33,903 nucleotides of DNA from Chrysophaeum taylorii (Eukaryota > Sar > Pelagophyceae > Pelagomonadales > Pelagomonadaceae): positions 62,501-96,403 of the forward strand of contig JAQMWT010000061.1 in NCBI GenBank assembly GCA_029834535.1. The letters are read 5' to 3'. Each line of letters opens with the position of its first letter. Within the stretch, counting starts at the first letter, position 1. This document shows positions 8,011-32,515 of this stretch, piece after piece. The notes below the pieces were generated by a model, which was given only the letters and a program-made list of their open reading frames with translations, ran no database searches and was not told where the DNA came from. A program made the position numbers and the translations under genes.

Positions 8011-8024
8011 GATTGTGATGTAGT

Positions 8025-9084: not shown

Positions 9085-9092
9085 CTATCGAT
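9064..9092. repeat. Perfect 11-bp hairpin
   Basis: ATCGATAGTCC at 9064-9074 is the exact reverse complement of GGACTATCGAT at 9082-9092, with a 7-base spacer GGGAGTT. It sits just beyond the protease fragment. Function unknown. Confidence 0.95.
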
Positions 9093-11734: not shown

Positions 11735-12512
11735 GGAGTCGTATCCGGTGTGTTCGACCGGAGGATCGTGTTCTAATCGGCAAAGTAGTCCTGAGTCGTG
11801 ACAATTGACTGGCCCTGAATTCATTTCATGTCCGGGGTCGTTTTCACCAGAATCACACTCCCCTTTATGTACAAGCGCGAGTGAGCGCGGTGCATCCCTG
11901 GTGAATTGTGCAGTGACTTAAAATTGGGACATTCGACAGAAGGGAGAGGTCGATATGCGAGAGCTGTGCAGTATACAACATGGAGGGCGCGTATGTTTCA
12001 AGAGAGAATGAAGCTGTGGACGGGAGATGTCCGAAGAGTGAGTATGATGTGAGACAATTGACATAGTGCGAGGATTGGCCGATGAGAGCGAGTCATGCGA
12101 GACCGTGGCTGGCAGCGAGTGTGCGAGAGTAAAGGAAGTTATATAAATGGCAAGTGACTTCCCTTGATTCAAAACACAACTGAGTGGGGCATGCGATGTG
12201 CGGTAGTGACAGTCGGCAATATGCTGATAGCAGAGCGCGTGTCCAACCCGAAGAGATTGGGGGTTATCCTCGCGGATGCTACAGAGAATATCGACTGGGT
12301 GCGAGTCGCAATAGCAGCTGGTGAGCTCAGAGTTCTGCAAGGTGGAACCTGCGGTGTGAACGGAGAGGAGCGAGCCGGGTGCATCACAAGAGCATAACAT
12401 GCGAGTGCAGTCTGAGCTGTTTCCGATGTGGACTTCTACCAGTAATGTCGATAGATGCGAAGCGTGGACTGAACCGGGCGAGGACGTCGCGTGAAGTGGC
12501 GCTGCAGCCGAA
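11735..12512. repeat. Left arm of large inverted repeat
   Basis: The reverse complement of this segment matches 16078-16822 over its whole length at roughly 75-85 percent by eye. Examples are GACTCCGACCAT at the outer end, the shared CCCTCGCGCTTGTACAT region, and CGTCGCGTGAA at the inner end. Homology stops at about 12512 on the inner side. Minus-strand frames in this arm and plus-strand frames in the other arm translate to similar Ser/His/Pro-rich peptides simply because the DNA is duplicated. Confidence 0.85.
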
Positions 12513-15500
12513 TCTCCCGGATTCAGCCCCCTGGTCTGATGCATACAGTGAAGAAGCAAGTTCAAATTCACTAGCCTCGAAGATGGTCTCCCCGACCATT
12601 CCCGATCGGCCGCCTGATCCAAGCGCCATCACCAATGCCCCCGCAATGCCGTATCCACAAGGACAAGACACGCTGTCAACGGTCCCACGGTCACCATACT
12701 CGCAGCAACTCACCGCACCTGCAGGTATCAGCTCCGATTCACTAAAAACTCCCGCCTTGTTCGATATCTCTCGATCCACTGCCCCCGATCACTTCAAAGC
12801 TGGTTCCACCTCGCTGCCTTCTCTGTCCGAAGACAGGCGCGCACTGCCGCTCACCGGCACTCGCTGCTGCACCCACCATCCACCTTCTCGGCCGGGTGCA
12901 CTGGACGACACTGCTCAGCAGGTTGCATGGACCAATCTGCGAGCACCATGTCACGATTCGATGGATGTCATCGCACGAGCATCAGTCGCCGCACATGATC
13001 ACCCGCTCTTCAACTCTCGGGCGCACTCCTTTCGGATGCCGACCCCTATGTCTCACCGCGACCAAGCTTCTGGCAAGCCTCCATCATGGCCGCAGTCACA
13101 GACACGGATTTAGAGAGTTATGAACGCTCCGATCAGCCGCAAACTATCCACGCTTCTATTGCGACCACCTCGGTCCTTTATGTACACTTGCGTAGCTCTC
13201 TTCTGGACGCCACACGCCTACGCTGCCTCCGGAAAATCGATGTTGCGCTCTCAGGAGACATTCTCCGCGCGCACTGCACAGACTCGCTCCACCTTGAACC
13301 GCTTTGTGTAGAACCGCTTCTGTCAGCATTTTCGCATATCAGGAATGTACGACGAATGTTCCATGCCAGCTGCCGGCTCCACCGCAAACATGCACCCTAG
13401 TCACGCACGATGACTCCCTCAGAAGCGTATTATCGCTCGGCACGTCACTCCACATTCGAGGAAGCATGTCACATGCCCGCACCTTCGCATGCACTACACG
13501 CCTATGGGCAACCCTGGTCACTACGGCACTCGCTGCTCTGGTCTCGGCATCTCCGCCATTGAGGATGCACCCAGCATGACTGACCCTTCCATCGCCCTTG
13601 GTTCTACTGCACTCACGTACTATGACTCCAGCGAACTTGCACTTTCCTTCGGCGATCCCCCTTTTCGATTTCCCGCACTGGACCCCACGCATTCCAGGCC
13701 GGATATTCTCCACCACGGGATCTCAGCTCACGCACACATCTGCACTACCTCGCAGACAGGTCAGCCGCGCGCCACACCCATTTTGGCACTGATTTCGGGA
13801 CACTCGCATCACGCGATTTTGCTCTTGGAGCATGACACGCTTCTCGATGCTCTCCGCGTCACCGCCTTTAACACCAAGACACTCGTCATTTCCACCGACG
13901 CTCCGCGCCGCCACGTATCTCACGACCTTCCGATCATCAACATAAGTCGCTCGCGCCAGCACCAAGTCGCGCACGCCTTACGAGGGCGCATTTCAATTGG
14001 TGATCTCACAGGTCTTACGACGCATTCTCCGACGTCCGACTTCGAACTTACGAGTCACTTTACGGCAATCCCCAATGCCAAGACGTCTGACGCTGCGCAA
14101 CCATGTCTCTGGAACTCCACAGCCACGTAAACTGCCAGACAAGAAAGCACTCAGCTCCCCACAGCTGCTCAACAGCTACTTCTAGTCTCGCACATAGCAA
14201 CGACTACAATCTCGCAGTCTCTCTTGGACAAGACGAAAGATAAGACCAAAACGGCTAGCTACACCAGTCAGCCCATTGATGTAGCACTCGAGACAATGCA
14301 AACCAACTGCACAGCACGGTTCCAGACTATACCGACAATGCCCAGGTCCAACGTTCAATCGCTCAACCAAGCGCACGTCCAGTCGCTCCACATTGCACTG
14401 CTACAGGCTCCTGTCTCATTCATAGCTGATGCACCCCATCCGATGGATCAATATTTTAGACATGTCCCGCTCGCAGAAGCACCAGCGCAGGACGCACAGG
14501 TACATCATGAAGATACAGATAAGCGCACCACGATTACGCGCACTAGCTCATTGAGCCTATCTGAGATGAAGCTACAGCTTCGCTTGCTCCCTTCACCTCT
14601 GGAAGACAAAGGCCGCCTTCCAGCCTCCCAGGCACCTGACCCGCCCCTGCCGCTGCAATCCGCACCAGCACAGACGATCTCGCCTCCCTGCACGACTGCA
14701 GATCAGGCACTAGCCAATGTCAGCACTCGCCAGAGTTATGCGCACCCGCTGGAATCTTACCAGCACGGCTACCTCAGCCAGGCAGGTCACTGCACCACCT
14801 CGGTCTCCCCTGACACCAGGTCGACGCATCGCTCATTCGCGACCACCTCATGTCATCTATTGGACGACTATGATCTCGAGCACGAACTCATCGCAACGCT
14901 CGAGTCATACCCAAAAAGGAATCCTACTTTGGAGCCACCTCAGCCAATCCCACAGGAACTTTGGCCACCAGACGACACCCATGTGCTCATGGTTTCTCCA
15001 TTGGTTTCCTCCATGGCCTTTGACTGCAGCAGAGACAAGATGCAACCATCCCATGCGACTATACCCGCATTCTCGTTTGGGACACAAGCATTTCCTTCAT
15101 GTCAGATGTTTACGCTCATGGTACCGCCACATACACATACAGCAACCAAGATAGACGTGGACTGCGTTCCACCCTCATCTCTGAGCGTTACCCCCGACAT
15201 GCTGCTCCCGGCACTATTAGCCAGTCCCATCACGTCTGATTCAGCTCCCATCGCCTTGTATTGCGTCATACGTCATATTCCGATTACAGCCCAGACACCG
15301 CACAGGCTCCTACGCACTCGCGACGGCACGCTCACCGCCCCTCTCTTAGACTACCAACATTGCGCCATCCTCATGGTACACTCACGGTCAACTGAGATGC
15401 ACGCTCGCTTGTTGCACCGTACGATGCCCGAACACCTTTTGGTTCAGGATAAGCACAACACTGTCGTCTCAGTCACCGCTTACGCGCCCCCTCTGACCAC

Positions 15501-16077
15501 CGCCCGGTTCTGCGCTCATTCCGCAACCACGGTCTCTCCGCCTCACCGGCAATTCGGAGATTTCACCAAGTTCAAATTACGAGGGCGCATTCGTTTTCCA
15601 CCGCCGACAAGATCTGTTTCGATTCGTATCAGTCACGTCTCCTATGGCTACTCTGGCTACATCGGAACTCACTTCAAGGCACGTACCGAAGTCCCTCTTC
15701 CTAAGGACCTCTGTCACACGACAAGACCTGATGAGCACTCGCCGTTCCTCCCCGCTTCGACGCGACTCCCGACGATCCAACTCCCGACGCTTTGTGATAA
15801 CACTGAGTTCCGTCATCAATGCAATTTCGAGCCTCACACGCTCTTCCGTCAGTCTCTTGCAGGTCACATCCCCAAGTTCCAGCTAGCTCGATTTCATCCT
15901 GCATGCTGCCATATGCACATGAAGTTCTGTCATGCCAACGCCACATGTCGCAGTTATCGCCAGTCACGCGCAACAAATGGCCGCCACTAAATGATAGCCG
16001 CACACAGAGTCCTTTGCTCGCCTCTTTTAACGTCCCTCCCAACACTATGCTTGACGTTGAAGCTCTACACCTCTATG
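12513..16077. other. Loop of the inverted repeat, pyrimidine-rich strand
   Basis: About 3.5 kb between the arms. The plus strand is C/T-rich, the opposite bias to 10375-12400. Long plus-strand frames (12379-13113, 13489-14130, 14224-15990) encode Ser, Thr, Pro, His and Leu-rich sequence without any domain, signal peptide or motif. The longest (588 codons) begins at TTG, with its first ATG near 14296. I treat them as composition-driven, though an unknown element-encoded protein is not excluded. Confidence 0.5.
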
Positions 16078-16826
16078 GTTCGGTTACAGCACAATTTCAC
16101 GCGACATCCTTGCCCAGTTCTGTTCACGTTTCGCATCTGTCGACATTACTGTCAGAATTCTGCTTCGGACACAGCTCAGACTGTACTCGCATATTACGCT
16201 CTTATGACGCACCCGGTTCGCTCCTCTCCGTTCACACTGCAGGTTCCATCTTGCAGAACTCTGAGTCCAACAGCCACCATTGCGCTTCGCACCCAGTCGA
16301 CATTTTCCGTAGCACCCGCGAGGATAACCCCCAGTCTCCACAGGTTGGACACGCACTCTGGTCTCAGCATTCTGCCGAATGTCGCAGCCGCACACCGCTT
16401 GCCCCACCCAGTTGTGTTACGAATCAAGGGAAGTCAAATATTGCCATGCCTATCTCTTCCTTCATTCCCGCACACTCGCTGCCAGCCACAGTCTCGCATG
16501 ACTCATTATCGGACAGTCCTCGCATTATGGCCATTGCCTCACATCATGTTCACTCTTCGGACATCTCCCGTCCACAGATTAATCCTCTCTTGAAACATAC
16601 GCTCCCTCCGCGTTGTATACTGTACAGCTCTCGCATATCGACAACACCCTTCTGTCGAATGTCTCACCTTCCAGTCACTGCACGATTCACCAGGGATGCA
16701 CCACGCTCCCTCGCGCTTGTACATCAAGGGAAGTTTGATTCTGGAGAATACGACTCCGGACAGATTGTCATGACTCAGGATTACTTTGCCGAATAGAACA
16801 CGAAAGACGCGACTCCGACCATACCT
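16078..16826. repeat. Right arm of large inverted repeat
   Basis: Inverted partner of 11735-12512. Its outer end is cut cleanly at about 16826, where a Copia LTR-like sequence beginning TCCAGAGAGC starts, whereas the left arm continues outward into different DNA. The inverted-repeat element was therefore present before the Copia-type sequence arrived. Confidence 0.85.
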
Positions 16827-17237
16827 TCTCCAGAGAGCTACACTATTATGTGCGCGACACTGGAACATTTCACACCTATCTCTACACGAGGGTTTTCTCT
16901 CCGTAATACGGCTTTCCCTCGTTCCTCCTGTCCTTCCTTACCCTTCCGCAATTATATATTTTCATGACTATGAAGAACCCAGTCTGAAGCTCTTTTCCAA
17001 CATGGAGTAGGCCTCCAGGTGCGTACCGTCAGGTACGGGGTTGTCTGTTTAATTAACAGAGTCTTCGTTCCTCGTCGTCAGTGTAAGCGCTTCTATGGGA
17101 CCTATGCCCTTAAGGAGTTAGGGCTTAAAATTAAATCCCTACCTTGTGTAGTAGCATGTGACAAGCGGAATGGTCTGTACACGCCTAAGACTGCACGCAG
17201 TCTCTACCATGTACCCGGAGAGGGTCAAATCTCTCCA
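16827..17237 (+). repeat. 5' LTR of a Copia-type element (start approximate)
   Basis: The 3' end is well defined: CTCTCCA at 17231-17237 is followed at once by the primer-binding site. The left limit is less certain. A block of about 31 bases starting TCCAGAGAGCTACAC at 16827 recurs at about 30829, just after a G-run at the 3' end of the Copia body, suggesting both are LTR starts of one family; that gives a 411-bp LTR. A pyrimidine-rich tract and a TATATA-like stretch near 16953 could be promoter elements. A shorter LTR starting at TGGAGTAGG (about 17004), which pairs with the CTCCA end, is an alternative. Confidence 0.55.
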
Positions 17238-17715: not shown

Positions 17716-17883
17716 TGTGGCAGTAACGCCCATTCCCCGACTTGCCTGCCTGCCACATGACTTACCCTGGTTGTTGTTCTGGTACTGACCTTGCAAATAT
17801 AGGGGGGGGTGTCACCTTGACACCCTCACCTGCGCTTCCACTGAACTCAATGTACCGGGCATTTGTATTGCTTTCTTGCTGTC
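17716..17883 (+). repeat. Family-A LTR 5' portion, truncated
   Basis: 168 bases starting TGTGGCAGTAACGCCC, nearly identical in reverse orientation to 8349-8182 (a handful of mismatches around the G-run). It stops exactly at GCTGTC, where gag sequence of opposite orientation begins. An LTR head fused to the 3' part of an inverted gag marks a rearranged insertion. Confidence 0.85.
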
Positions 17884-18779
17884 ATTAGCGGCAAATTGTA
17901 CTCGTTGTACAGTTTAAGCATTGTTACATAACAGGCATGTGTTGAGCTTTGACCAAACACGTACTGTGTCATGAAACTTTGCGTTTGTTCGGAAGGCACA
18001 ACGACGAGTGTAAAACCATTGTTTAATTTTGGTAGCAACACAGGGAGATCTGTGCCATCTTCATTATCTTCATTGGGTTGATTTTTTGGGAGCTCGGAGT
18101 GCGAGGAAGCTTCCCGAGCTTGACGACGAACGATAGCACTCTGAGCTTTAGCGTTTATGTGCTGCAATAGCGGCGGAGGGATGTTATCGATTTCATCATC
18201 TTTAATGGACAGAAAAGTGTGAAACATTTTCACTGTTTCAGCGGTCCCCCTCTGCATCGCATCACTGGGGGACGCTTCAGGGGCAGATGTTTCAGTTTGA
18301 TACTTTTCTTCTGAAACATGAGATTCCTTATCGGCTTCTAAGAGGTTCACAATGGTATTGGACATAGTATCAACTCGAGATAAGTAGAGATGAACTTGGG
18401 TGGCTTCGTCAGGATCTAAGGACTGTGTCGAAGCTTGAGAAGCGGTTGTCCAGAGGGTACTCAGTAAGCTTTTCAGTTCCTCCTGTACCATTTTATAGTC
18501 GGTAGAGGGGTTCGGATTCGCTTCCTGTAATTTACCAAACAGGTGGCGAAGACGATCAACTTGATAAGTAGCCCGGTCCATAAGAGACATATTAGAGCGT
18601 GCATTACGGTTAGAGGAGGGTGAGTAGACAGGACGATCGAAGCTGGTACCTTTGACGTTATAATTTGAAGATGGACGATAGTACGACGTGTCACGAGGTG
18701 AAATTGTCGATGCTTTATCTTTTGCATTGCGAAGCTTACGAGCGTTGAAGCCAGACTGTCCAGCTACAGTAGCTAACAA
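17847..18779 (-). pseudogene. Retrotransposon gag-like C-terminal part
   Basis: This is a 310-residue minus-strand frame. Its start, read on from 22485-22264 across the LINE, aligns with the right-hand gag copy: PKVLLMDT-HQSHDSLNNAY matches PKLLLTNTLDSSDKSLTQTA, then FNARKLRN matches FNARRSRN and DTSYY matches DLSYY. The rest contains an acidic, Ser/Glu-rich stretch and likely helical segments (MDRATYQVDRLRHLFGKL) and extends beyond what the right-hand copy shows before the window ends. The last 13 or so residues come from the adjoining inverted LTR, so the true C-terminus is missing. Function is inferred only from homology to the post-leader ORF. Confidence 0.65.
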
Positions 18780-18788
18780 CGAGTAAGC
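18776..18788. repeat. LINE target-site duplication, 3' side
   Basis: ACAACGAGTAAGC here is repeated exactly at 22251-22263 on the other side of the LINE. Removing one copy and the LINE restores the gag reading frame (AYSLL). Confidence 0.95.
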
Positions 18789-21700
18789 TAACTAACTAAC
18801 TTCGGACCTCTCCCGGGCATGGGAGCCAGGCTGGGCCGGCAGTAGCCGGCCAAGGACCACAGAGCAAAAATCACACAGTTGGGGTAGAGGCGAGGGATGA
18901 AAGGGCGTGGATGGCGGACCGCCACTGCGCGCGGTCTTGTGCGAGGTCGTGCCACGAGTTGAAGGGGATGTCGCATTTCCGGAGTGCCTTGGCGAGCGAC
19001 CTCCCGTACGTCACCTGCGGAGCCCCCGGTGGGCGCTTGGAGCGGACCCAAGACGAGAGCATCTTGCGAGGGGGTCGGGAGAAGGGCATGCGGGCGACGT
19101 GACCGGCCCAGCGGAGCTGGCGGCGCGTGACGTAGACGTCGATGCACTCGAGGCCGAGGCGCCGCAGCAGGATCTCCGTTGAGATGTGGTGGAACCAGGT
19201 GTGTTTCCGGGTCACACGACACATGACGCGGGCGCACTGCGCGTGGAAACACCGCAGCCGGCGGAACAGGACCTCGGTGAGGCACCACGATTCCGCACCG
19301 TGAAGGAGGATGGCCAGGACGAGCGAGACATAGACGAGGCGCTTGGCGCGAGCAGAGACGGACTTCGAGGCGAAGATGCAGTCCCGCAAGGCACCGAAGG
19401 CCTGAGACGCCTTCTTGATCCGCGCGTCGACGTCTGAGTCGTCGCGGCAGTCGCGCGAGAGGACCGAGCCGAGGTACTTAAACTGGTCGACGACCGGTAT
19501 GAAGCGGTCGCGCCCGAGCTCGATGTCCGAGAGGTTCGTGTCGTCGAACGACTTTGGGTCGCCGTACAGGTGTGCCGGGCGAGCGACGAACAGCATCTCC
19601 GTTTTGGACGCCGCTTTCGTGTGTCGGTTGCCGCAATGCACCTCCATGCCCCAGGCGTCGCAGTGTTCGATGAGGCGCGGTGTCTCGCTGGCGGCGATGT
19701 GGCGGTCCCAGAAGAGAAAGGCAACGTCGTCGGCGTACGCCGATTCATCGAAGGGAAACTCGTCGCCGCGAGCGGACCAACCCCGGTTCGTCATCTGAAA
19801 GTCTTTCCGCGTACGGTAGACACACGGGGCGCGGCCATGGCGTCGTCGAAACGACGTCGTCAGTGCCGCCATGAACAGCACGAACAGGACGGGGCCCAGG
19901 ACGTCGCCCTGCTTGACGCCGATGATCGAGTCAACCGAGGCGACGACACCGCTGACCGAGAAGTGGACCTGGATTCGGTGGAGGCCCTTGATGACTTCGA
20001 CGAGCTTCGGCGGGACGCCGAACTTCAGGAGCACCTCCCAGAGAAGCTCTCGCGGGACGCGGTCGAACGCCTTAACGAAATCGATGAACAGTACCCACAA
20101 GTCCTGACCGTGCTCACGCCGCTTCTTCAGCGCTAGCTTGAGCGAGAAGGTGGCGTCGGACCTACCGCACTCGGGTCGGAAGCCACATTGGGACTCGTGA
20201 TCGAGGGCCTCGCAGATGACGTTGAGTCGCGCACGGACGATGTTCGAAACGATCTTCTGCGCGACCTCGAGCATCATGATCCCGCGGTAGTTGCCCGGCA
20301 GGGAGAGGTCCCCTTTCTTGGGGAGAATCCCGAGGAGGCCTACGTCCGACTCGGCCGGCTGGACTTCGGACTCCCAGAACTCGAGGACTACACGCTCCAA
20401 CAGCGGGAGCGTGCGAGCGTCAGTGGCGAGCGCCTTCCAGACCTCCGCGCGCAAGCCCGATTCGCCGGGTGCGGTGCAGTTCAGCTGACCAACGGCCCGT
20501 TTTATCTCCTCCTGCATCGGTGGTTCCCCGAGTTCCGGACGGATCGGCAACTGGTCAACGTCGTTGATCACGGTGGGGTCGTAGCGAGCTTGTCGACTGT
20601 AGAGCTGCTTGAAGTGCGCCTTGAACACGTCGGCGTTCTCCTGTGGCGACGAGCACCTGCTACCGTCGGCCTTCGTCATCTGCACCTGCCTAGCCAATGT
20701 GGTCTTCGTGAGACCGCGTCGGAGCCGTCCGACCGTATTCCAGTATTTCGAGGTGCCGCCGAGCGATTCGCTTCCCGCGTTGAGTCCGGCGCACAGACGA
20801 GTAATCCATCGCTCTTTCGCCCGAGCTACGGCCTTCGCGAGCCGCGACTTGATCGCCCGAAGGTCGTCGAGGATCGTGGACGCCGAGCGAAGACGGCGCC
20901 GGGCACCGAGCGAGAGCACAAACGCGTGGAGGGAGTTGCGTCGCTCGATCAGAGGCTGGAGCTCTTCCGCCGCGTCCTCAAACCATCCGGGTCGGAGGCG
21001 TCGGGTCTTCGGCAGTAAGGCGTCAGAGGCCGAGGCCGCCGCCCGCGCAAGGCGGGAGTACGGCGAGGACGGCGAGCCCTGGTCGGCGTCGGGTACCTCG
21101 TCCGTGGCGTCGGTCGGTGCGTCGTCGGTCGCGTTGTCATGTGACCCACGGCCCAAGCCGAAGATGTCGAGCACTTTCGAGCACCACCGGCGCCGGAATC
21201 CGAAGCGCGTGCTTTCTGAGCGCAGGGGAGCGTAGTCGAGGCGCGCCAGAGAGGGCCGTGTGCCAGGAGGCCGTGCGAGGCGGACTTTGACGCGGAGGAT
21301 GCACTTGAGAGCGCGGTGGTCCGAGTCCACGAGGCTGCTGGTCAAACCCACATCAGCGAACCGGTGCACGTCGCGCCGCCGTGAGATCATGTGATCGAGC
21401 TGGTACGTTTTCCAGGAGCGCGGGTGCAGCCACGACGCGTGGGCGCGCTTGCGGAAGAACGTGCCGACCGACGCCAGACGCCGTGTTGCGAGGAACGTGT
21501 GGAGACGGCGGCCAGCGTTGTTGACGTAAGGCGCCCCGTAGGGCCCACAGGGGCCGTCGACGACGTACTTGGAGCGCACGCCGAGAGCCGCGTTCCCGTC
21601 CATCCCCAGGACGAGGATGTCGTCCGGCCGCCGCGCTTGAAGCGCAAGGTCAATGTCGTCGAAGAACGCGTCCCACTTCTCGTCGGGCGCGGTTCCGACT

Positions 21701-22250
21701 GGAGCGTAAGCGCTCATGACGAAGAGGCCGAGGTCTCGATCGTCATCGTCCTGGACATCGAGTCGCAGCGCAATAACTCGCGCAGATGCGCGGATAACGG
21801 TGCTGCCGCTCGCGTGCCACGCCTGTTGCGCCGCAGGGGACAGCACCACGGCCACACCCTGGCTGCCGCGGGAAGACTGCTCGGAGACTGCCAAACCGGA
21901 ACAAACAGCGACGTAGCCGTGTCGCTCGAGCGACTCGTTGCCGGTGAGCCACGTCTCCTGCAACGTGGCCGCGAAGATGTCCCGCCGCCGTAAAGATGCG
22001 AACAACTCTTCCTTCTTCTCGTCGCGTCGCAGACCGCGAACGTTTTGGTCCACGAATAATCGACCCGTCCGTCGCGTTCTACCCAACCGAGCGAACCCCA
22101 TCCCAGCGCTGACTTTCCGGGTGCTAACCGGCCAGCCCGGGAGGCGGGCAGGCACCGTCTCACTCCGGGACGGCCGGGGCCGCCGCAGGGAGCAAGCGTA
22201 TTAGGCGCCGTCCTCCATCGCAACCATAAGGTTAACGATCGCAAGGGGGG
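18789..22250 (-). mobile_element. Full-length non-LTR retrotransposon (LINE)
   Basis: A GC-rich 3.46-kb insertion bounded by 13-bp duplications. The 3' end ends in a TTAG tandem tail, not poly(A) (AGTTAGTTAGTTA on the minus strand). The 3' UTR holds a perfect 7-bp stem, GGCCGGC at 18834-18840 with GCCGGCC at 18845-18851, next to a smaller CTCCC/GGGAG hairpin; such hairpins are plausible reverse transcriptase recognition sites. The 5' UTR is about 95 bases. The single ORF is uninterrupted, so this is the youngest insertion in its nest and may have been recently active. Confidence 0.93.
18871..22155 (-). CDS. LINE endonuclease/reverse transcriptase polyprotein
   Basis: A 1094-residue intact ORF. 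Residues about 35-290 form an apurinic-type endonuclease, with LQETWLTG, SAYAPVG, VLGMDGNAALG, LDHMISRR and SDHRAL in order. Residues about 540-860 are the reverse transcriptase, with GESGLRAEVWKALA, ILPKKGDLSLPGNYRGI, FIDFVKAFDRVPRELLWEVL, GVKQGDVLGPVLF and the catalytic SAYADDVAFLF. The C-terminal part has QLRWAGHVARMPFSRPP, common at the end of several non-LTR lineages. No RNase H, CCHC knuckle or separate ORF1 is seen. The first ATG at 22155 gives an Arg-rich leader; the Met 18 residues further in is also possible. It should nick target DNA and reverse-transcribe its own RNA in place. Clade is not assigned. Confidence 0.93.
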   Translation of the reverse strand: MPARLPGWPVSTRKVSAGMGFARLGRTRRTGRLFVDQNVRGLRRDEKKEELFASLRRRDIFAATLQETWLTGNESLERHGYVAVCSGLAVSEQSSRGSQGVAVVLSPAAQQAWHASGSTVIRASARVIALRLDVQDDDDRDLGLFVMSAYAPVGTAPDEKWDAFFDDIDLALQARRPDDILVLGMDGNAALGVRSKYVVDGPCGPYGAPYVNNAGRRLHTFLATRRLASVGTFFRKRAHASWLHPRSWKTYQLDHMISRRRDVHRFADVGLTSSLVDSDHRALKCILRVKVRLARPPGTRPSLARLDYAPLRSESTRFGFRRRWCSKVLDIFGLGRGSHDNATDDAPTDATDEVPDADQGSPSSPYSRLARAAASASDALLPKTRRLRPGWFEDAAEELQPLIERRNSLHAFVLSLGARRRLRSASTILDDLRAIKSRLAKAVARAKERWITRLCAGLNAGSESLGGTSKYWNTVGRLRRGLTKTTLARQVQMTKADGSRCSSPQENADVFKAHFKQLYSRQARYDPTVINDVDQLPIRPELGEPPMQEEIKRAVGQLNCTAPGESGLRAEVWKALATDARTLPLLERVVLEFWESEVQPAESDVGLLGILPKKGDLSLPGNYRGIMMLEVAQKIVSNIVRARLNVICEALDHESQCGFRPECGRSDATFSLKLALKKRREHGQDLWVLFIDFVKAFDRVPRELLWEVLLKFGVPPKLVEVIKGLHRIQVHFSVSGVVASVDSIIGVKQGDVLGPVLFVLFMAALTTSFRRRHGRAPCVYRTRKDFQMTNRGWSARGDEFPFDESAYADDVAFLFWDRHIAASETPRLIEHCDAWGMEVHCGNRHTKAASKTEMLFVARPAHLYGDPKSFDDTNLSDIELGRDRFIPVVDQFKYLGSVLSRDCRDDSDVDARIKKASQAFGALRDCIFASKSVSARAKRLVYVSLVLAILLHGAESWCLTEVLFRRLRCFHAQCARVMCRVTRKHTWFHHISTEILLRRLGLECIDVYVTRRQLRWAGHVARMPFSRPPRKMLSSWVRSKRPPGAPQVTYGRSLAKALRKCDIPFNSWHDLAQDRAQWRSAIHALSSLASTPTV

Positions 22251-22263
22251 ACAACGAGTAAGC
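22251..22263. repeat. LINE target-site duplication, 5' side
   Basis: Exact copy of ACAACGAGTAAGC at 18776-18788. Confidence 0.95.
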
Positions 22264-22485
22264 GTTGTTTAAAGAGTCGTGGGATTGATGAATAGTATCC
22301 ATCAATAATACTTTAGGCGGCTAGGTAGTTATAAACTATATTCCACCCTCATGGAACGCGTAATTTACGTCCCATGGCTCAAAACCATCTTGGAGTCAAT
22401 GCATTCGCAGCTGCCTTACATACGCCAGCATTTCCCACCTCCCGTATGACGCAAGGTTACCACACGTTTGCTTCACACAGTAACT
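22264..22485 (-). pseudogene. Continuation of the interrupted gag
   Basis: Beyond the LINE, minus-strand translation continues the gag alignment: PKVLLMDTIHQSHDSLNN is clear, and weaker matches (FEPW, EG, RMH-stop where the other copy has Trp) continue toward 22485. Stops near 22330 and 22400 show decay. The outer end abuts the methyltransferase reading of the plus strand somewhere between about 22390 and 22486. Confidence 0.5.
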
Positions 22486-24165
22486 ACGTCTCCTAGCTCA
22501 CGAACACCTACTGTAACTCTACTTTGCTCTGGGATGTCCACGCCCGCCTTCTTGGCTTGCGCTTATAATGACTTGCAAATCAACATCAACGTCAAGATTC
22601 TTGTTGAGAGCGACGACAATCTCACGCACATGCTACGAAGACGTTTTGGTAATTCCATCGAAGTTTTCCCATCCCTACCCAAGTTTCTCACATATCTCCA
22701 TCGAGCATCGGACGTCGAACGTGCAAGATATTACACCGATATAGTGGAACTGACATCACCATGCACAAATCGCAACATAATCAATGGGAGATCCATTTCC
22801 ACCTTCGAGCGTGATATGGACGATTCCTTGTTTCCAAGTGCTCTAAGTGTACTCGAGCTTTTAAAGCCGCTTGTTCTTTTCATGGAAATGACACCACCAC
22901 GCTCCGTGTCGTATGAAGACCATATACGAGTTGCTAATCTCATCTTCTCAACGATGCACTATACGGTGGATATATGTGACCGATTTCCATGCTGTCTGTG
23001 CGGAGATTATCAAGCCAGAGAAAGATGGATCCTCGTTGCGCGCAAATATAACACCGGCCATCTTGATCTGCTTTTCTGGCCTAACAAACGAGTCACTTCC
23101 TTTCTGGACATTGCGGACCACGCTAGTTCCATCAGTCGCAAGTTAATAGTCGACGAACCTTGGACGCAGGTCTCTTCCGACATACCATTCGTGTCCACAC
23201 CTAAAACCTACAACATCTTTAGTCGTACAGGATCCGTGCGCTTAACTGTGACTGAGCTTGAAACCTTAACCATGCTGTTTCTTCGTCTGCACTCTAACAA
23301 AACAGTCGAACATCCAAGTCAAGATGAAATGGAGGGCATTTCTAACTTTCGCCTGGGATTCTTGACTAATTCAATAAAACCACTTGCTTGTATGAGATCT
23401 CCTATTGAACTCACAGCTGTTGTGCTCCTCTCTAATATTATGGGACGTTTATTCCCTCAGTCCATCACATTGCCTGTGTCCTGTCGTATTACAACTATCG
23501 AATCTAACCAACCATCTCACAGGTTATTCTTAAATAAATCCTCTACTTCCACCATCATTTACATCACCGGTGGAAGACACACAGGCGGAGACATAACAGT
23601 TTATAACTCCTCTTCTAAATACCAGGCACATATAAATGCTTGTGGCGAAACCTATACCTTCCTAACACATGATGCCTGAATCGATAAGACTGTTTCTCTC
23701 GAACCTGTTACTGGTTTTCTTTGGCTTTGCCAAGCATACCATCATAATAATCAAAATCAAGACACGCGTCGTTTAGTGCAAGCACTGGTCACCTATACTT
23801 CTCCTGTATTTCACGATTCTTTTGTCTTCTACCCTCAGGAAAATCGTCTCGAATTTATCCATAAAGTGTTTGCTTTAAGTGACATGCATCTGTCCCAAAG
23901 CAGATATCTGGGCTTTATTACATCAAGCGATAGGAAAATGGGTGCCAAAGTTCATTCTATATACACTCCTACTCCTACCATTCGTGGATTTGCTAATATG
24001 CTCGTGTACGATCCACGACTCGATCGCATCCGACACTACTCAACTCGCGAATTGGCACGCGCCAATAACTTTACAGCGCACCAAATCAATTTTTTTCTGT
24101 CTTTGTCCCCGGACCTATGTTGTGATATAATCGCGAATGCTATTCCAGCTGAACATATCATGTAA
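22468..24165 (+). pseudogene. C5-cytosine DNA methyltransferase carried by the Copia element
   Basis: Transfers a methyl group from S-adenosylmethionine to cytosine C5 in DNA. Counting from 22468, the motifs are: I at 18-30 (LLCSGMSTPAFL); an acidic pair in VESDD (47-50); IV with the catalytic Pro-Cys at 98-99 (ELTSPC); a DDSLF segment then motif VI, with the catalytic Glu at 140 (LVLFMEM, in place of the usual ENV); VIII at 179-192 (GDYQARERWILVAR, the QxRxR signature). A target-recognition region follows. Near the end come PTPTIRG, motif IX (STRELARANNF, about 24040) and motif X (IIANAIPAEHI, about 24127). An in-frame TGA at 23677 splits an otherwise open frame of about 566 codons. The N-terminus is truncated: no ATG precedes motif I, and the frame opens at 22450. 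It lies in the same orientation as the integrase downstream with no element border between. It is not fused to pol in this copy. Confidence 0.88.
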
Positions 24166-24359
24166 TTTATAAACATTTGTTTCAGCTTGTGATCGCATCC
24201 GACACTACTCAACTCGCGAATTGGCACGCGCCAATAACTTTACAGCGCACCAAATCAATTTTCTTCTGTCTTTGTCCCCGGACCTATGTTGTGATATAAT
24301 CGCGAATGCTATTCCAGCTGAACATATCATGTAATTTATAAACATTTGTTTCAGCTTGT
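24022..24359 (+). repeat. 169-bp tandem duplication of the methyltransferase 3' end
   Basis: Unit 24022-24190 is repeated at 24191-24359 with essentially one difference (a T run versus TTTTCTT). Each unit carries motifs IX and X, the stop codon and about 25 bases downstream. The first unit completes the methyltransferase frame; the second is an extra copy after the stop. Near identity means a recent event, or a second genuine C-terminus retained. Confidence 0.97.
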
Positions 24360-24760
24360 CTATGACTTGCGTAAATTGACGCTATCACCATCGTTTGACC
24401 CTGATCATGCCTCTCTAACCAAAAACTATAGGTCAACTTTCTTCACAAATATATTCCCAACAGATACATCCCTATGTATATTAATATATATTATTACACC
24501 AGAGTTCCATTACAATGTTCTACATCTCAAATTAAAAACTTTCATGTTGTGATAATCCTGCCTCTAACCACGAACTTCCATCTTTTCATCTCGATTCAGT
24601 AGCTCATGTCCTCCAATCTAACACCCCATCCGCAGATATATCATCTCTTTCTAAAGAAAGACAAATTCCTCTTATAACGCCAAGACATCTCCATGAGAAG
24701 CATGCGCCCTTCGATAAGAAAGTTCATGCCAGGGGCACCCTCGCATTTCGAGATGCGCAA
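24360..24760 (+). other. Spacer between methyltransferase and integrase
   Basis: No retropepsin motif is seen where Copia elements normally place protease. From about 24552 an open frame begins (DNPASNHELPSFHLDSVAH) and runs into the integrase zinc-binding region, so this may be a decayed polyprotein linker. Confidence 0.45.
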
Positions 24761-27700
24761 CAACGAGCTACCAATTTTCACAACATCCACCATTCTAGTG
24801 ATTCTCAAGCTAAAAAAGCTGTTCAGGTTATGCCAGCCCTGGACACCACCCATCTGACGTACCCTACCGCAAGTTCTGTGTGGATTGTACGATTCATAAA
24901 AAACGCTTTCCTCATCCACATCACCTTACCAAGCAACCATCATTCGAAAAATTTTTCAACCTGGTGAAGCCTGGGCATGTGACGGTGGTTACGTATCTGT
25001 GCTCTCGGAATGGGGATCCTTTCGACATATCATTGTTTTCAAGTGTCTCATTTCTAAATTTATGTTAGTGTACTTTTGTCGTAGCACTAACTCCAGCGAA
25101 TTTTGTAACGCCCTTGAGTTTGTCCGCACCTTTTGCTCTACTTATGTTCATGTACAACTCAAACAAATCTATTGTGATTCCTTTAAACCCTATTTATCTC
25201 AGCATGCTACAACCCCCTTTCGTGTGGAACATGGTATTAACATGTCCGCGTTCCCCCCCTTACTTACATGTCTTTAATCATGAAGTAGAAGCCGCTGTTG
25301 GTTACATAGCCACTGCCGCGTCTACACGACTCCGGCATATGCTTAATGTATCCTATAAAGGTCACCCCCTAACAGATCCGGCACCACACTACCCGTGGGC
25401 TGTTATACATGCCATCCAATCATATAATCTCCTCCCTAACGTTTCCCTCGAACGTATTTACAATAAAGTCCTAAGCCCCCAACAAGTTTTGTTAGACCAA
25501 TGTAATGTTCCCCAACAGGACTACCTCAAACCGTTTGGTTCTGTTTGTTATCTGCATTTAGAACCTAACGAATTTCACAAATATGAACCCCGATGTCGTC
25601 CCTACATCTACTTATGTGGTGCTAACGTTATAAACCCTTTAATAACACCCCATGTTAATTATTTAGCCGATGTTGTCCTTAATCCCGAGAATGGTCAAGT
25701 CCGTGTTTCCTCTAAACTGACTTTCCCTCATCTTATTTCTAAATCTTCTCCCGATTATGAACAGCATCCACCTCCCGCACCTTCAACCGACATTCCCTTC
25801 TCTGTTCACAGCACCCCCCATGATGCGGCGCAGAGGGGGAATGCTATGCCTACCGACGCTGACCATGCGAGGGGGACCTCTTCTTCTCATTTCCATGCTC
25901 CCTCTCCCGCTCCCGCATGTGCCCCAGCTGCTTCTGCACCCGCCGCTTCCGTCACCACACCTACATCTGACGTGTCTTCCAACACTTTGCCACTTTTACC
26001 ATCTTATCGGTCTCTCTATTCCCAGGATGTCCTACGTCACACCCGTGGTCCTCATCACCCTCAGCCTCGTCGCGAAACCAATCTCACGGATGTTCTTACT
26101 CGTATTGCCTCGCCTACTGTTGCCGCTTATAAACACGCCGGTGGTGCGCTTGCCGACTTCAAGTATGACCTCTCCAAGCAGTACATAACCTTCTGCGACC
26201 CCACCCTCCACTCCCTTCATCTTGCTCATGGCATCCACTGGACGGCTATACCACCAGAGGGGGAATTTACACCATCCCTTCATCACCATGTGCACCACGC
26301 GATCTCACAGTCCTCTTCAGTTATGTGTCATAGGAGCCATAGCCACCCATCGCCTGATGCTCCTCATGTTCACTTCTGCGACGACACCAACCTTGCAGAC
26401 TTTCACCTCCCTCAAGCGCTCGTTCATTTAATTTCTGAGCATGCTCACGCCTTTCGAGTTCCGCCCGCTCAATATGTTTATGCTTTGTTCACGCCCCACT
26501 CCATATTGGATCATAATGACGCTTCTTATGGTGCCTCCGAGCCTCATATCTCCGCCATCGAAGACTATATCACCGTGCAATCGCATTACATTGAGGCCCA
26601 CCTTGGTGATGCTCCTCTACTAGTTGTTCAACTCGTCGAAGATTCCGATCACACTCATCTGCACGATAATGTCGCTTCTTACGCAATTACTCATCTGACG
26701 ACGACTCATGACCCCAGCACGGTTGGTTCGGACGAGTACAAGATTCAAGCCAAAGATATCAAAATTGATGAATATGAGTTGAGCTGCCTCAAAGGTCTCT
26801 CAGCCGCTGATCGCAAAGCTTATGTTGCTGCCATCTCCAAGGAGATTTTTGATATTGTTAAGTTTGGCTGCTTTAAACTAGCGCTGCCAATGGTCAACTC
26901 AAAGCCTATTGACACCCGCCTCGCCCTACGTATAAAAACCAACGCTGCTGGTCAGTACATTAAACATAAAGCACGCCTGGTCCTACGAGGATTCTTAGCC
27001 TCTCTGGGCACCGATTTTGTCAACACATTCAGCCCTATGGCACAGCTTACTGGCATCCGTTGTGTTCTGGCGCTAGCAGCTCATCTGCGACTTCCAGTCT
27101 ACCATGTCGACGTCCCTAACGCTTTGTTCAATCTCCCATCGATTCTCATGTCTATGTCAAACTGCCACAAGGCATTTACCTTCTTGATCCCGAAGACACT
27201 AAATACCAAGGCCGTCGTCTCCCAAAGCTACTTAAATCTCTCTATGGATTACGTCAGAGCCCTGCCCTTTGGAATCAAACCATAAACGGCTTCTTTGATT
27301 CATTAGGCTATACACGATTTCGAACAGACACCTGCATTTACGCTAAAGTCCAAGCTGACGCCACATTTCTAATTTGCACGCTCTCAGTATACGACGTCGT
27401 CATTACTTGTACTTCGGAAACTCTACGTCGTGAATTCCAGCAAGCCCTGAAAAAGGCATACTCAGTCGACACCTTCGAGGAAGTCCATACTCTCTTAGGC
27501 ATGCGCATAGCGCGTACAACTGCTGGTTCTATATCACTGGACTGTCAGGCTAAACTTGATGCATTGTTCGAAGAGTACCCCATTTTAATGCAGTTACGTC
27601 CCACTTCCACACCGATGTCACCATCAGCCACGTATAAAACTGGAAAGCCATCTTCTGATATGGACAAGTTCATCCTTCACACCTTCTCTACTCTATTCGG

Positions 27701-28572
27701 CAAGCTCACGTTTGTCCAAATGGCCGGTCGCCCCGATCTATCTCAAAGTCTTAGTCGTTGTTCTCGAGGAATGCATAATCCAGCATTTCTACATGTTCAA
27801 GTACTAACAGGAACGCTCCGCTACTTGCGCAAGCACGAAAATCGTAATCTTCGCCTCTGGTACTACTCTGGTTCTTCCGCTCTAATGGACCATCTTCGAC
27901 TTCTTATCGGTAATCGTACTGACATGGCCACCATGTTGGATTACACTAAAGAAAAAGTAAATTCAGGTAATTTTGATCCACTGGTCGCGTTCGTAGATGC
28001 CGATAATGCACCCTCTTATGAACAAGACCGCAAATCTACAACCGGCTACACTATCTTTTTGTTTGGTTCTCTCATCACTTGGAAGTCTAAGTTGCAGCCT
28101 ATTACAGCTACTTCTACGCATGAGAGTGAACTTATCGCCCTTAATATGTGTGCCGATGATGTGGTCTGGTTACGCAAATTGTTAACAGAAATGGCATTCG
28201 CTATAAATCCTCACTTCTATGTCCGCCAACCTTCAGGGAAAGACTTGCTACTAGATTATGTCAATTTATGATGCTCATGACAACCCCCTCCCATCGGACA
28301 TGTCGTTCATACGTAACAGTCCTATACTGGGAGACTCTGCCTCTGCTATTCATCTTTCCAACAATCCCGACAGTGCGACTAAGGCCGAAGCTATCAGCGC
28401 ACGCTGGTTCCGTATTCGCGACTACGTACAGTTAAAACGTATACGTCTACATCGTGTTTCCGGTACCCAAAATATCGCCGATGGATTTACTAAACCCTTT
28501 GGAGCTCCGCTCTTCAGTCGATTTCGCACGTTACTCGGCTTACAACAACCCATAGCTCAACCGGATGGTTAA
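24761..28572 (+). pseudogene. Copia pol: integrase, reverse transcriptase, RNase H (frameshifted)
   Basis: The domain order integrase before reverse transcriptase defines Ty1/copia. The zinc-binding part shows FHNIHH and, in another frame, FCVDCTIHKKR. The integrase catalytic residues are Asp 24981 (AWACDGGYV), Asp 25176 (IYCDSF) and Glu 25288 (FNHEVEAAVG). PFGSVCYLHLEPNEFHKYEP then closes the core in the way typical of Copia. A long Pro/Ser/His-rich linker precedes the reverse transcriptase (KHKARLVLRGF, FSPMAQLTGIR, YHVDVPNALF, KSLYGLRQSP). RNase H has VDADN, RKSTTGY, STHESELIAL, then in a new frame LGDSASAI and IADGFTKP. Frameshifts lie near 24900-24970, at a seven-C run (25253-25259), near 27140 and near 28257. 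The YVDD box is reduced to YD, so this copy is inactive. Confidence 0.92.
27381..27410 (+). other. Reverse transcriptase YVDD box with six-base deletion
   Basis: The frame reads L-S-V-Y-D-V-V-I-T where Copia enzymes have L-x-V-Y-V-D-D-x-x-x-T. The flanking residues are well preserved, so an in-frame loss of two codons, including one catalytic aspartate, is the simplest explanation. Confidence 0.75.
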
Positions 28573-28686
28573 TCCTTACCCTTCATTATGTCCGAAATGA
28601 CTTTAAACTAACCCTGCTATGCAAGGAATACTGACTCGCTAAAATGTGAAATGCAATGAAAGATGTGAGTGGATATTCTTTTCACG

Positions 28687-30600
28687 ATGAATCCCACTAA
28701 AAACAAAGATGCTGCGAGCCGGCGCCATTCTACCCTGAACCGTGGTCGTGGTGGTGCACTGTCACTATCCCCACCTTTTAATGCTCTAACTCCAAGCGCT
28801 GCACCGACTAGTTCCCCTAATCGGGAACATCAAACCTATTTGTCGGTGGCTCAAGGACATCAATCTACGCTCGTTGCGCCTAAGGCACCCAAGGCAACTG
28901 TCCAACAACCGTATAAATCGCAACCATCAAAGTCTGAGTATTTCCTGTTTAAACATTGCAAATTTTACGCACTTGCGATGATGTCAGGGAACACATCCGC
29001 CCTTGGTGCATCCCCGCCAAACTTCCTCCTCCCTCAGCATAAGAATCCTCAGTGTTGGCTTAAGTCTGTGCAGCAGCTGCTTACCGAAGCACAACAGACA
29101 GACTTTGTGGACGATATCCAATATCTTAGTTCACTGCTGTGCGTCAAAGCAAAGCGCATTCGGAATGCCCCCGCTATATCTCCTAATGAAGGCATTCGCT
29201 TTCACCGCTTTCCACCCATTAAAGGGGTTGTCAAAGTGCATGTGGCGTGTACAAAGTGCTACAACAAAACTGAGATGCCGGGCACACCCCTCGTGCTCAT
29301 CATCTGTACTGAAGATGAGCTTGAAACTGACAGGATTCGCCAAATTATTGAGGATCATCTCGCTTCTGAGCAACATGCATCGCATTGCTTCGATGTACCG
29401 CGCCCTTTCTTTTTGTTGATTTGTGTGATGTGTAATTTGTCGAATCATGGGGTAGCGTTAATTCGCAATAATCAGCAGCCCTGCCAACTCTCCTGTTATA
29501 ATGATCCAGCTGCCCACATACGCGCTATAGTCCTCCGCCTTGGAAAGTCCATTGCTATTAACAAGCTCCTCAAAGAGGCAATCATGTAGACTGCAACATC
29601 CCATAACGTTTATGCTTCTAAAATTCTCGTCAACCCTGACGCTAACACCATGCTCTTACTGCAGCTGCCCTTCATTTCGAGTGTAAATCTTGGGATTCTT
29701 GTAGCAGCTTGGTCTTTGTTACAATCTGTGGAAGATAACACCTGCGTAGTTACCAATCCTGAGGAGTCACTTAACGTGCTCATCGAACGCTTTGTTAACG
29801 ATGTGTCTCATCAACTTGACGCAACTTCTTCCGAGACGGTACCGCCAATGCTACACTACTTTCACCAACTTCCACCTAATCAACAACTAGCATTTAAAAA
29901 CGTGTTAATTCAAGTTGGCTACCCATCCCATATCATTGACACTTTCACTAATAATACCCCTTCTGAAGATGTGTCATCAGCGCCAATCGATAATCCACCC
30001 GCTGAGCCCACGCCAGATAAAGCTAACGACAATATGGCTGAATCCCTACACCAATTAAAAGAAGAGATTCGGTCTTTATCTCTACGTCTCACTAACACCG
30101 AACAGCAATTGATGGCACGAGAACATCAACTATCGCTTGCTCTAACGTCTCTCACACAGATGCAAGAAACCTACGAGACCGTTAATACTCAAGTGACCGA
30201 GAACATTAAACATGTCTCTTTGTTAGATAACAATTTGTCAAGTCATCAAATGCATCAGAACACCATAATACCGACCTCTGCTGTATTTGTCCATATCATT
30301 TCTCGGTCGCTTATCTCGTCTATTGGACAGCTCCCTCCAGATACGTATAATGAGGCACAGCGAGTTCAAATCGACGCAGCAGCTCATCACCTCCACACAG
30401 CTATGTCTGATGCACATGATCGTGTTATCCCTGCATTGGATCTACACGCTCTTACACCAGATGCTGCTATGTCTTTCCTTTCGTCTGTCATGTCACCCTT
30501 GGTCACCTTGAGTGAGGCAATGACTACACAACTACACACAACACCAACACTGCTAACGACCTATCCTCTTATGATCATAATTCGTCTTCTCCAGAGTTAA
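28687..30600 (+). pseudogene. Extra ORF downstream of RNase H, coiled-coil protein
   Basis: The first ATG at 28687 (MNPTKNKDAASRRHS) opens a frame that stops at TAG 29587-29589 and continues in the same frame to 30600, about 638 codons in all. A second ORF could instead start at ATG 29650. The N-terminal 90 residues are basic, Ser/Pro-rich and probably disordered. The middle has several Cys and His residues (VACTKCYNK) without a clear finger. Residues near 30030-30250 form an obvious coiled coil (LHQLKEEIRSLSLRL and following heptads). No signal peptide or membrane anchor is clear, so it does not look like an envelope protein. It lies about 115 bases after pol in the same orientation, and its 3' part is duplicated in the palindrome. 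The family is unknown. Confidence 0.65.
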
Positions 30601-31680
30601 AGGAACTGGACGATAATAGCGAGGATGAATTGGACCACACATCTGATGTCGTGGATACCGATACAGCTTCTTTGCGCAACATCACAACACGCTCGACGTC
30701 ATAATTAATTTGTCCTGTTCTGTTGTTGTTAGTTCCACTGTTCACTGTTCTCATGTATATTGCACAAGTTCCGCTTCAAGAACGTCTGAAATGCATAAAC
30801 CGTTTTCACACGTTGAGGGGGTCCAGAGAGCTACACTATTATGTGCGCGACAACAGTAGAGATAGGTGTGAAATTTTAAATTTTAAATTTAAAATTTAAA
30901 ATTTCACACCTATCTCTACTGTTGTCGCGCACATAATAGTGTTTTTTTTTTAATTTAAAATTTAAAATTTCACACCTATCTCTACTGTTGTCGCGCACAT
31001 AATAGTGTAGCTCTCTGGACCCCCTCAACGTGTGAAAACGGTTTATGCATTTCAGACGTTCTTGAAGCGGAACTTGTGCAATATACATGAGAACAGTGAA
31101 CATTGGAACTAACAACAACAACAGGACAAATTAATATGACGTCGAGCGTGTTGTGATGTTGCGCAAAGAAGCTGTATCGGTATCCACGACATCAGATGTG
31201 TGGTCCAATTCATCCTCGCTATTATCGTCCAGTTCCTTTAACTCTGGAGAAGACGAATTATGATCATAAGAGGATAGGTCGTTAGCAGTGTTGGTGTTGT
31301 GTGTAGTTGTGTAGTCATTGCCTCACTCAAGGTGACCAAGGGTGACATGACAGACGAAAGGAAAGACATAGCAGCATCTGGTGTAAGAGCGTGTAGATCA
31401 ATGCAGGATAACACGATCATGTGCATCAGACATAGCTGTGTGGAGGTGATGAGCTGCTGCGTCGATTTGAACTCGCTGTGCCTCATTATACGTATCTGGA
31501 GGGAGCTGTCCAATAGACGAGATAAGCGACCGAGAAATGATATGGACAAATACAGCAGAGGTCGGTATTATGGTGTTCTGATGCATTTGATGACTTGACA
31601 AATTGTTATCTAACAAAGAGACATGTTTAATGTTCTCGGTCACTTGAGTATTTAACGTTTCGTAGGCCTCTTGCATCTGT
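30156..31680. repeat. Large palindrome with AT-rich centre
   Basis: Arm 30156-30890 and the inverted arm at about 30953-31680 are around 97 percent identical by eye, about 730 bases each. The arms contain the last 148 codons of the extra ORF, the 3' untranslated region and the start of the LTR-like sequence. The centre is A/T-rich (TTTAAA repeats), with an additional inverted unit of about 55 bases (30889-30942) and a T run at 30942-30951. The second arm has single-base deletions (for example near 31402 and 31408) that break its reading frame, so arm 1 is the parental copy. Confidence 0.93.
30601..30860 (+). other. Copia 3' untranslated region, G-run and putative LTR start
   Basis: After the extra ORF, a short acidic reading (ELDDNSEDELDHTSDV) continues in another frame, suggesting the ORF once ran further. 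At about 30822 the sequence TTGAGGGGG, a polypurine-tract-like signal, immediately precedes the TCCAGAGAGC block shared with 16827. Confidence 0.5.
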
Positions 31681-31994
31681 GCAGAGAAATCTGCTGCCTC
31701 TTACCCTTTTCCGTCCGTCGAGAACGTGATCTCTTCCTTTCCCTTCTTCTTCCTTTCTACACGATCGAATAGTCCTCTGATTTGTGCCTACGCTCATCAT
31801 CATGGTCTAGCGCGTCCCGAGGTATGTAGCACCATACACTTTACCTTTCTCGTGTAGTTATAGATACCGCCTGTCGTGTTCTGAGGATATAGGGAACATA
31901 CCTTTTCATTCCCCGAATTAAATACTTCCAGACGTTCATGATGAGACGGGATGGTTTCCCAGGTGACTTACCACTGCTTGCTAAATGCTCTGCA
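31680..31994 (+). repeat. 5' LTR of a second Copia-type element
   Basis: 315 bases starting TGCAGAG and ending CTCTGCA, a perfect 7-bp terminal inverted repeat with canonical TG...CA ends, followed immediately by the primer-binding site. It begins where the palindrome ends. Pyrimidine-rich tracts occur in its first third and an AATTAAATA stretch near 31917. Its partner LTR would lie beyond the window. Confidence 0.8.
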
Positions 31995-32008
31995 GGTTAT
32001 GGGCCCAG
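31995..32008 (+). promoter_or_regulatory. Primer-binding site for initiator tRNA-Met half molecule
   Basis: GGTTATGGGCCCAG follows the LTR terminal CA without a gap and is identical to 17238-17251. It is complementary to the anticodon arm, not the acceptor end, of initiator tRNA-Met. Confidence 0.88.
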
Positions 32009-32515
32009 GCGGGTCCCTGAGAAATCCTGTGCTAAAACGCGCACGTAACCTATGGGTTTTGAACAGTTACCGCGCCTGTTTAGCCTCGACACGAAAACAC
32101 ACTTGTGAATACAACGCCATTACCATTGGGCGGTATATAATTTTTTTTTGCACACGTGATCGTGTAACCTTGTGTGCACCTGTTCATAGCATCGTGCTGT
32201 CATGTCAATGTTGATGTGTGTGTAATTGGCTAACCTGTACTCTTGCACACATGTTATGGAATATTTTGGGTACGTCCACTCGCACATTCCATGGCAATGC
32301 ACTAAACAAGCTCCTTGAGAGCACCAAAACTAACCAGCTGCCTGAGTGACAACGCTTAGCGACACTAGTCTGGACTCACAGCTTGCACAGTCGTCAAATA
32401 GACATCTTTCCATCGAAAACGATGAGTGTACATATACACCGATAGACAGACCCCCTTAGAATGTCTAGACAGTGTCAACTGCGTGACTGAACCCACAGGT
32501 TCCCCGTCAACTGCT
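32009..32515 (+). other. Leader of the second element
   Basis: 507 bases between the primer-binding site and the gag ATG. No supported gene. A GT-rich part near 32150-32230 and a T run at 32142-32150 are the only obvious features. Confidence 0.55.

Follow-up and report, generated by a model that had tools for sequence, protein, structure and literature searches.

Does a Copia retrotransposon in Chrysophaeum taylorii carry a C5-cytosine DNA methyltransferase (DNMT) as a part of its own? The question is raised by a stretch of 33,903 nt (C61:62501-96403, hereafter the window, to whose positions the coordinates refer unless a contig or copy is named) from a 70.8-Mb genome assembly of 697 contigs. 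A preliminary description had read positions 22468-24165 as one unit, a DNMT placed ahead of a Copia integrase. The window is eukaryotic, since it contains an unbroken V-ATPase subunit A gene at 205-2061; this gene terminates with TGA, so TGA is a stop codon in the host. The host is an alga, as judged from 84 genomic matches to the light-harvesting family PF00504; genome searches found no phycobilisome linker and no silicon transporter, the control for the latter matching only below the cut-off. The element copy in the window comprises the following features:

16829-17237, plus strand: 5′ LTR (TCCAGAG...TCTCTCCA), similar to both LTRs of copy C317
17238-17249, plus strand: likely primer-binding site GGTTATGGGCCC, directly after the 5′ LTR
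17881-18788, minus strand: Gag piece, in the opposite orientation to the DNMT-pol part (BLAST matches to C317, 94% and 92%)
18789-22250, minus strand: LINE-like element within the Gag piece, with a 1109-aa frame at 18871-22200 (identity assigned by eye)
22333-22446, plus strand: end of the Gag-protease frame (...HFPPPV)
22447-22449, plus strand: conserved in-frame UGA at the boundary between Gag-protease and DNMT-pol
22450-23676, plus strand: predicted C5-cytosine DNA methyltransferase domain, 409 aa (Cys codon 22762-22764, Glu codon 22885-22887, QxRxR 23011-23025)
23677-23679, plus strand: TGA closing the DNMT frame of the window copy; copy C114 is open at the same point
23680-24359, plus strand: spacer domain that matches no known family, in the same frame as the DNMT up to 24165
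24536-25617 (ends approximate), plus strand: Copia integrase from the zinc-binding part to the SH3-like domain, broken across several frames
26890-28520, plus strand: reverse transcriptase (RVT_2, two frames) and RNase H (by eye)
28669-30597, plus strand: ORF3, its C-terminal part perhaps a coiled coil, interrupted by TAG at 29587-29589
30822-30887, plus strand: 3′ LTR remnant in the middle of a fold-back

The window copy is damaged. The TGA at 23677 ends the DNMT frame, so that 22468-24165 does not form a single open frame, and 23680-24165 is spacer in the same frame. The integrase and reverse transcriptase frames are broken, the 3′ end is folded back, and the inverted gag piece is interrupted by the LINE-like insertion, which is flanked by 13-bp repeats ACAACGAGTAAGC (18776-18788 and 22251-22263) and beyond which the gag piece resumes at 22251-22328. 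The spacer contains a 169-bp tandem duplication (24022-24190 and 24191-24359), contrary to the earlier statement that no duplication separates DNMT and integrase. The orientation and upstream position of the DNMT had been described correctly; it lies roughly 1 kb ahead of the integrase and reverse transcriptase. In this copy, the Pfam scores of the integrase were below the cut-off (rve, E 3.1e-4; SH3_retrovirus, E 1.2e-5) and those of RVT_2 above it (E 9.2e-13 and 1.8e-19). The fold-back spans 30155-31687 and turns at 30887/30888, where a second, inverted copy of the element's 3′ end follows the first; it could have arisen by template switching or be an artefact of the assembly.

Within the DNMT frame, motifs I (VTLLCSGMSTPAF), IV (Pro-Cys, 22759-22764), VI (Glu in EMTPP, 22885-22887), and VIII (QxRxR, 23011-23025) follow each other in the canonical order. 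The order claimed earlier thus stands for these four motifs, whereas motifs IX and X are weak and became visible only through alignment to the sister family described below. Searched alone, the frame gave no match at E ≤ 1 to any Pfam family, including PF00145, or to NCBIfam, and a PDB search yielded only two spurious-looking matches at E 1 and above. The AlphaFold model of the domain was too poor to use (mean pLDDT 43.7). Among 5.8 billion proteins, two relatives were found, P0001 (40% identity, E 2.7e-70) and P0002 (30% identity, E 1.4e-17; listed as PF00145), both with the source 'mmetsp'. Against the PF00145 cut-off of 22 bits, P0001 scored 20.2 bits (E 4.4e-4), just under it, P0002 41.8 bits, and the sister family 33 bits. 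A search with a three-row alignment brought in P0004 and the fragment P0005.

In the PDB, the three-row profile (A1) matched M.HhaI alone, with E values from 0.044 upward. A nine-row profile (A6), consisting of the window copy, two other copies, P0001, P0002, P0004, and three sister-family sequences, matched 23 distinct sequences at E ≤ 1 (best E 8.6e-7), all named cytosine methyltransferases and 11 of them M.HhaI variants; the rows of P0002 and the sister family match PF00145 by themselves. Residues invariant across the nine rows include Pro-Cys in motif IV, Glu plus the two following prolines in motif VI, and the final Arg in motif VIII. Because of the profile matches and these invariant residues, the frame is, on the evidence of sequence, a divergent C5-cytosine methyltransferase by descent that lies at the edge of single-sequence detection. 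The failure of the lone frame against PF00145, which the preliminary description had named as a possible refutation, is therefore overturned by the profile of its relatives. M.HhaI and other C5 methylases (PDB 2i9k, 8yf3) align with the window family over motifs IV to VIII; unlike it, they are standalone enzymes, and motif I and the C-terminal half were unaligned here. Among 16 copies, the catalytic Cys, the Glu, and QxRxR were present in all, and Pro-Cys in 15. The window family substitutes PCT for PCQ and EMT for ENV. IMG/VR searches with the window protein or the sister-family alignment (A4) returned no relative, and a protein search with A4 gave a single match (E 0.49), which was not used.

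The genome contained at least 104 matches to the window DNMT (102 of 1211 candidates scored), and a degenerate DNA pattern for motif VIII had 428 exact places versus 0 for the reversed control. Eleven copies were taken with 8 to 16 kb of surrounding sequence. The better ones had the order LTR, Gag-protease, in-frame UGA, DNMT, spacer, integrase, reverse transcriptase, RNase H, ORF3, LTR. Their LTR pairs, of about 410 bp, were 91.0% alike in C314 and 92.4% alike in C317, a copy of 12.2 kb; the frames of these two showed a spacer of about 300 aa and a protease motif (ADTCASQH, by eye). No target-site duplication was recognised by eye at either. The Ty1/Copia order Gag-PR-INT-RT-RH, with the integrase before the reverse transcriptase, was present in the frames of C317 and others. 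Many of the eleven copies had frameshifts; in C428, a single uninterrupted frame of 1464 aa ran from the DNMT through the integrase to the start of the reverse transcriptase, with weak Pfam matches that were all below the cut-off (rve, E 0.011; SH3_retrovirus, E 9.1e-5; RVT_2, E 0.0069).

For the integrase, at least 153 genomic matches were found (150 of 1194 candidates scored). Its pairing with the DNMT was analyzed on contigs C1-C117, which have a complete list of the motif-VIII pattern and hold 37 listed integrase matches. The exact pattern lay on the same strand at most 4 kb upstream of 28 of these 37, at a spacing of 1.68-1.79 kb in 20 of the 28. Either the pattern or a scored DNMT match was found upstream of 32, and neither was found upstream of the other 5 on these contigs. 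A third group, with 59-61% integrase identity, accounted for 7 of the 37, and the pattern preceded all seven. The proposal of a Copia element with its own DNMT is thus borne out by a multi-copy family, and the suggested search for further copies with the same methyltransferase-integrase order found them. The extra 3′ ORF noted earlier also proved to be a family trait: ORF3, located between RNase H and the 3′ LTR, recurs in other copies, is a single 582-aa frame in copy C641 (L015 and L016, 10300-12045), matches no Pfam family above the cut-off, and is under purifying selection (dN/dS 0.07-0.19, 7 comparisons).

Selection was estimated by NG86 dN/dS from 16 copies, most of them top-ranked and each truncated at its first stop, in pairs with the distant copy C84, middle pairs, and near pairs; dS values above 1 are saturated. 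For DNMT residues 20-205, the median dN/dS was 0.06 (15 C84 pairs), 0.05 (26 middle pairs), and 0.10 (79 near pairs), and for residues 206-409 it was 0.07 (14), 0.06 (26), and 0.05 (79), respectively. The spacer gave medians of 0.11 (13 C84 pairs), 0.11 (24 middle pairs), and 0.16 (65 near pairs), and the integrase 0.06 (13 pairs) and 0.19 (22 pairs). Values for the stretch after the integrase, which includes out-of-frame tails, were 0.24 and 0.55. The DNMT of the window family is under strong purifying selection, with median dN/dS of 0.05-0.10. The copies show the predicted DNMT to belong to a multi-copy Copia family and to be under selection there, as a fixed pol domain between protease and integrase.

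In all 16 copies, a stop codon in the Gag-protease frame lies right before the DNMT, and each of the 12 copies whose codon was listed has TGA there, with C as the next base. UGA-C is a leaky stop context. In 9 of the 10 copies listed, the pol frame has no Met before one within motif I; in C84 the first Met comes farther along. Because the in-frame UGA is conserved and most copies have no Met before motif I, UGA readthrough would be the simplest account, leading to a Gag-PR-DNMT-INT-RT-RH fusion. The junction of the LTR and GGTTATGGGCCC was found with at most two errors in 6 of 11 other copies; Drosophila copia is primed by a half tRNA-Met, and this would fit the position of GGTTATGGGCCC behind the LTR.

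A genome search with PF00145 detected at least 57 places (123 of 474 candidates scored), and the loci of 30 were examined. One sister family accounted for 28 of them, with identities of 65-100% to its member L044. Its open frames retain PCQ in 27 of 28 and ENV in 27 of 28, with both present in 9 of 9 aligned sequences, and are without the Q and first R of QxRxR. In the frames of L039 and L044, the DNMT is preceded by a protease-like motif (LIDGGAS, by eye), and L051, the one locus of the 30 that extends far enough, aligns to the window-family spacer and integrase start (21%, E 6.4e-10), with no Pfam rve match. Over 256 aligned columns, the DNMTs of the two families share 19% identity (probability 96.7%); the dN/dS of the sister-family DNMT was 0.13 (28 pairs). 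The simplest reading would be a single old DNMT capture at the same place behind both families.

Outside the sister family were 2 of the 30 loci examined. One is a 360-aa gene that is DNMT2-like (PPCQPHTR, by eye); the other (C621:16962-20237, 2086-aa frame) has a DNMT match of 65.4 bits, a partial SNF2 match of 37.1 bits, and a RING hint below the cut-off (E 0.23). By its layout, this frame looks like a host DNMT5-like gene, the combination with SNF2 being described for DNMT5 (PMC12344493, as far as its available text goes). No DNMT1 or DNMT3 gene was seen among these 30 of at least 57 PF00145 loci, where exons may be concealed by introns. In a comparison of 13 near copies, third codon positions changed more often in CpG than elsewhere (G to A, 10.9% vs 2.0%; C to T, 12.8% vs 9.1%), a mild sign of 5mC. 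Over all positions of these copies, C-side CpG transitions showed no excess (4.2% vs 4.3% at non-CpG), and CpG was not depleted (O/E 0.92 in C317, 0.89 in C314, and 0.99 in the DNMT-pol part of the window). As a separate observation, coding-strand C/T changes outside CpG were roughly fourfold more frequent than G/A changes in the DNMT and spacer of the 13 copies (4.3% vs 1.2%), and this strand asymmetry was seen at third positions too.

Capture of DNMTs by retrotransposons was already known, as the preliminary description had stated: they are described in Symbiodinium LINE and DIRS elements and in a Klebsormidium Gypsy element (PMC5890265; this and the other papers are cited here for the parts of their text that were available). 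As in those elements, the DNMT of the window family lies within the pol frame and occurs in many copies. KnitGypsy-Dnmt3 from Klebsormidium nitens is alike in being of LTR type, in having the DNMT in the Pol polyprotein, in its conserved key residues, and in its purifying selection (Ka/Ks < 0.2 there); it differs in being a Gypsy element with a Dnmt3-class enzyme, fewer copies, and described DIRS-like repeats, and the available text of PMC5890265 mentions no UGA before its DNMT. SymbioDIRS-Dnmt3 and SymbioLINE-Dnmt from Symbiodinium share hundreds of DNMT copies with conserved key residues, and the former also the location in Pol, but they are tyrosine-recombinase and LINE elements, respectively. 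The Symbiodinium Copia elements are said in the same text to be without any DNMT. A single sentence in PMC12344493 refers to Copia and DIRS elements with embedded DNMT3, citing PMC5890265; no anatomy is given for this 'LTR Copia', and the meaning of Copia there is doubtful, since the cited work has Gypsy and DIRS elements. In their available parts, PMC5890265, PMC12344493, PMC9998398, and PMC12477816 contain no anatomy of a Copia element with a DNMT, which does not imply its absence from print. As far as our searches go, a Copia lineage whose DNMT follows the protease and a UGA and precedes the integrase, in several diverged groups, is new in its details though not in kind. It amounts to an abundant, selected DNMT case in Copia elements, with several diverged groups inside one genome of 70.8 Mb.

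What the enzyme does for the element has to be weighed against published opinion that the role of DNMTs in retrotransposons is unclear (PMC5890265). The anatomy of the element is well supported by the sequences compared here; the role is what we infer from them. Since a stop codon and the protease precede the DNMT and the integrase follows it, the enzyme should work within the particle. The explanation we favor, to which we give about even chances, is that stop readthrough yields the DNMT as a pol domain, which would methylate the element's own cDNA. It would be packaged together with the element RNA and add methyl groups to the cDNA either in the course of reverse transcription or afterward. 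The new copy would thus integrate with 5mC already in place, which the DNMT5-like host enzyme may then keep. New copies would at once resemble silenced host repeats, and the likely gain would be less harm and less detection, with the ongoing cycle unhindered. The C5-methylase descent, the family-wide motif, the DNMT upstream of 28 or 32 of 37 integrases, the 1464-aa frame, the selection, the signs of readthrough, and the CpG change at third positions speak for this explanation; the PCT and EMT changes, the loss in QxRxR of the sister family, the undepleted CpG with no C-side excess of transitions, the unusable structure model, and the 5 of 37 integrases with no DNMT found speak against it. For SymbioDIRS-Dnmt3, an element whose enzyme methylates CG in yeast, methylation of cDNA has already been proposed, but the SymbioLINE enzyme gave no de novo DNA methylation in yeast, which counts against this explanation (PMC5890265).

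The same position, directly before spacer and integrase in both families (in the sister family at the one locus L051), would also suit a DNMT that serves integration, binding DNA or chromatin or methylating the target site and thereby steering insertion; the conservation of the spacer itself (median dN/dS 0.11-0.16) fits this, but binding alone would not require the catalytic Cys and Glu that are retained, and we consider such a role unlikely. A domain that is no longer a DNA methyltransferase, acting instead as an inactive scaffold or on RNA, for example the element's own genome, seems improbable to a similar degree. The changes from PCQ to PCT and from ENV to EMT point that way, as does the lack of a structure model supporting a methyltransferase, and an RNA substrate has been suggested for SymbioLINE (PMC5890265); yet Cys, Glu, and QxRxR are kept in 16 of 16 copies under strong purifying selection, and all 9 aligned sister-family sequences (9 of 9) retain PCQ and ENV. 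The window copy by itself, with its missing Pfam match, its stop, duplication, and inversion, could be taken for a chance neighbor, a lone insertion, or a decayed relic outside the element. This is almost certainly wrong, as the DNMT occurs family-wide at the same place under selection: the at least 104 matches, the 428 versus 0 pattern places, and the pairing with integrases rule out a chance neighbor or lone insertion, and purifying selection on the DNMT rules out a relic.

DNMT5 in Cryptococcus is a maintenance-only enzyme. Because hundreds of Copia copies encode DNMTs and the other genes seen are only DNMT2-like and DNMT5-like, the transposon enzyme would be the one to seed marks. That retrotransposons provide de novo DNA methylation in this host, with the host DNMT5 keeping the transposon-seeded marks, is a speculative extension that we think even less probable than the two functional alternatives above. 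If true, a parasite would write the silencing code and the host would copy it. Since the host enzymes are, as far as seen, DNMT2-like and DNMT5-like, the roles of parasite and host enzymes may be separable by experiment.

Contigs C25 and C521 have identical DNMT match coordinates and light-harvesting matches 12 bases apart, and are probably duplicate contigs or haplotypes. The window also contains other element pieces at 7318-9436 and 11829-16762, namely minus-strand gag-protease parts of the window family and a long imperfect inverted repeat pair (11829-12512 and 16079-16762). A further related Copia element begins at 31987-33640, with an LTR end and a sequence resembling the primer site near 31987 and a gag-like frame at 32426-33640.
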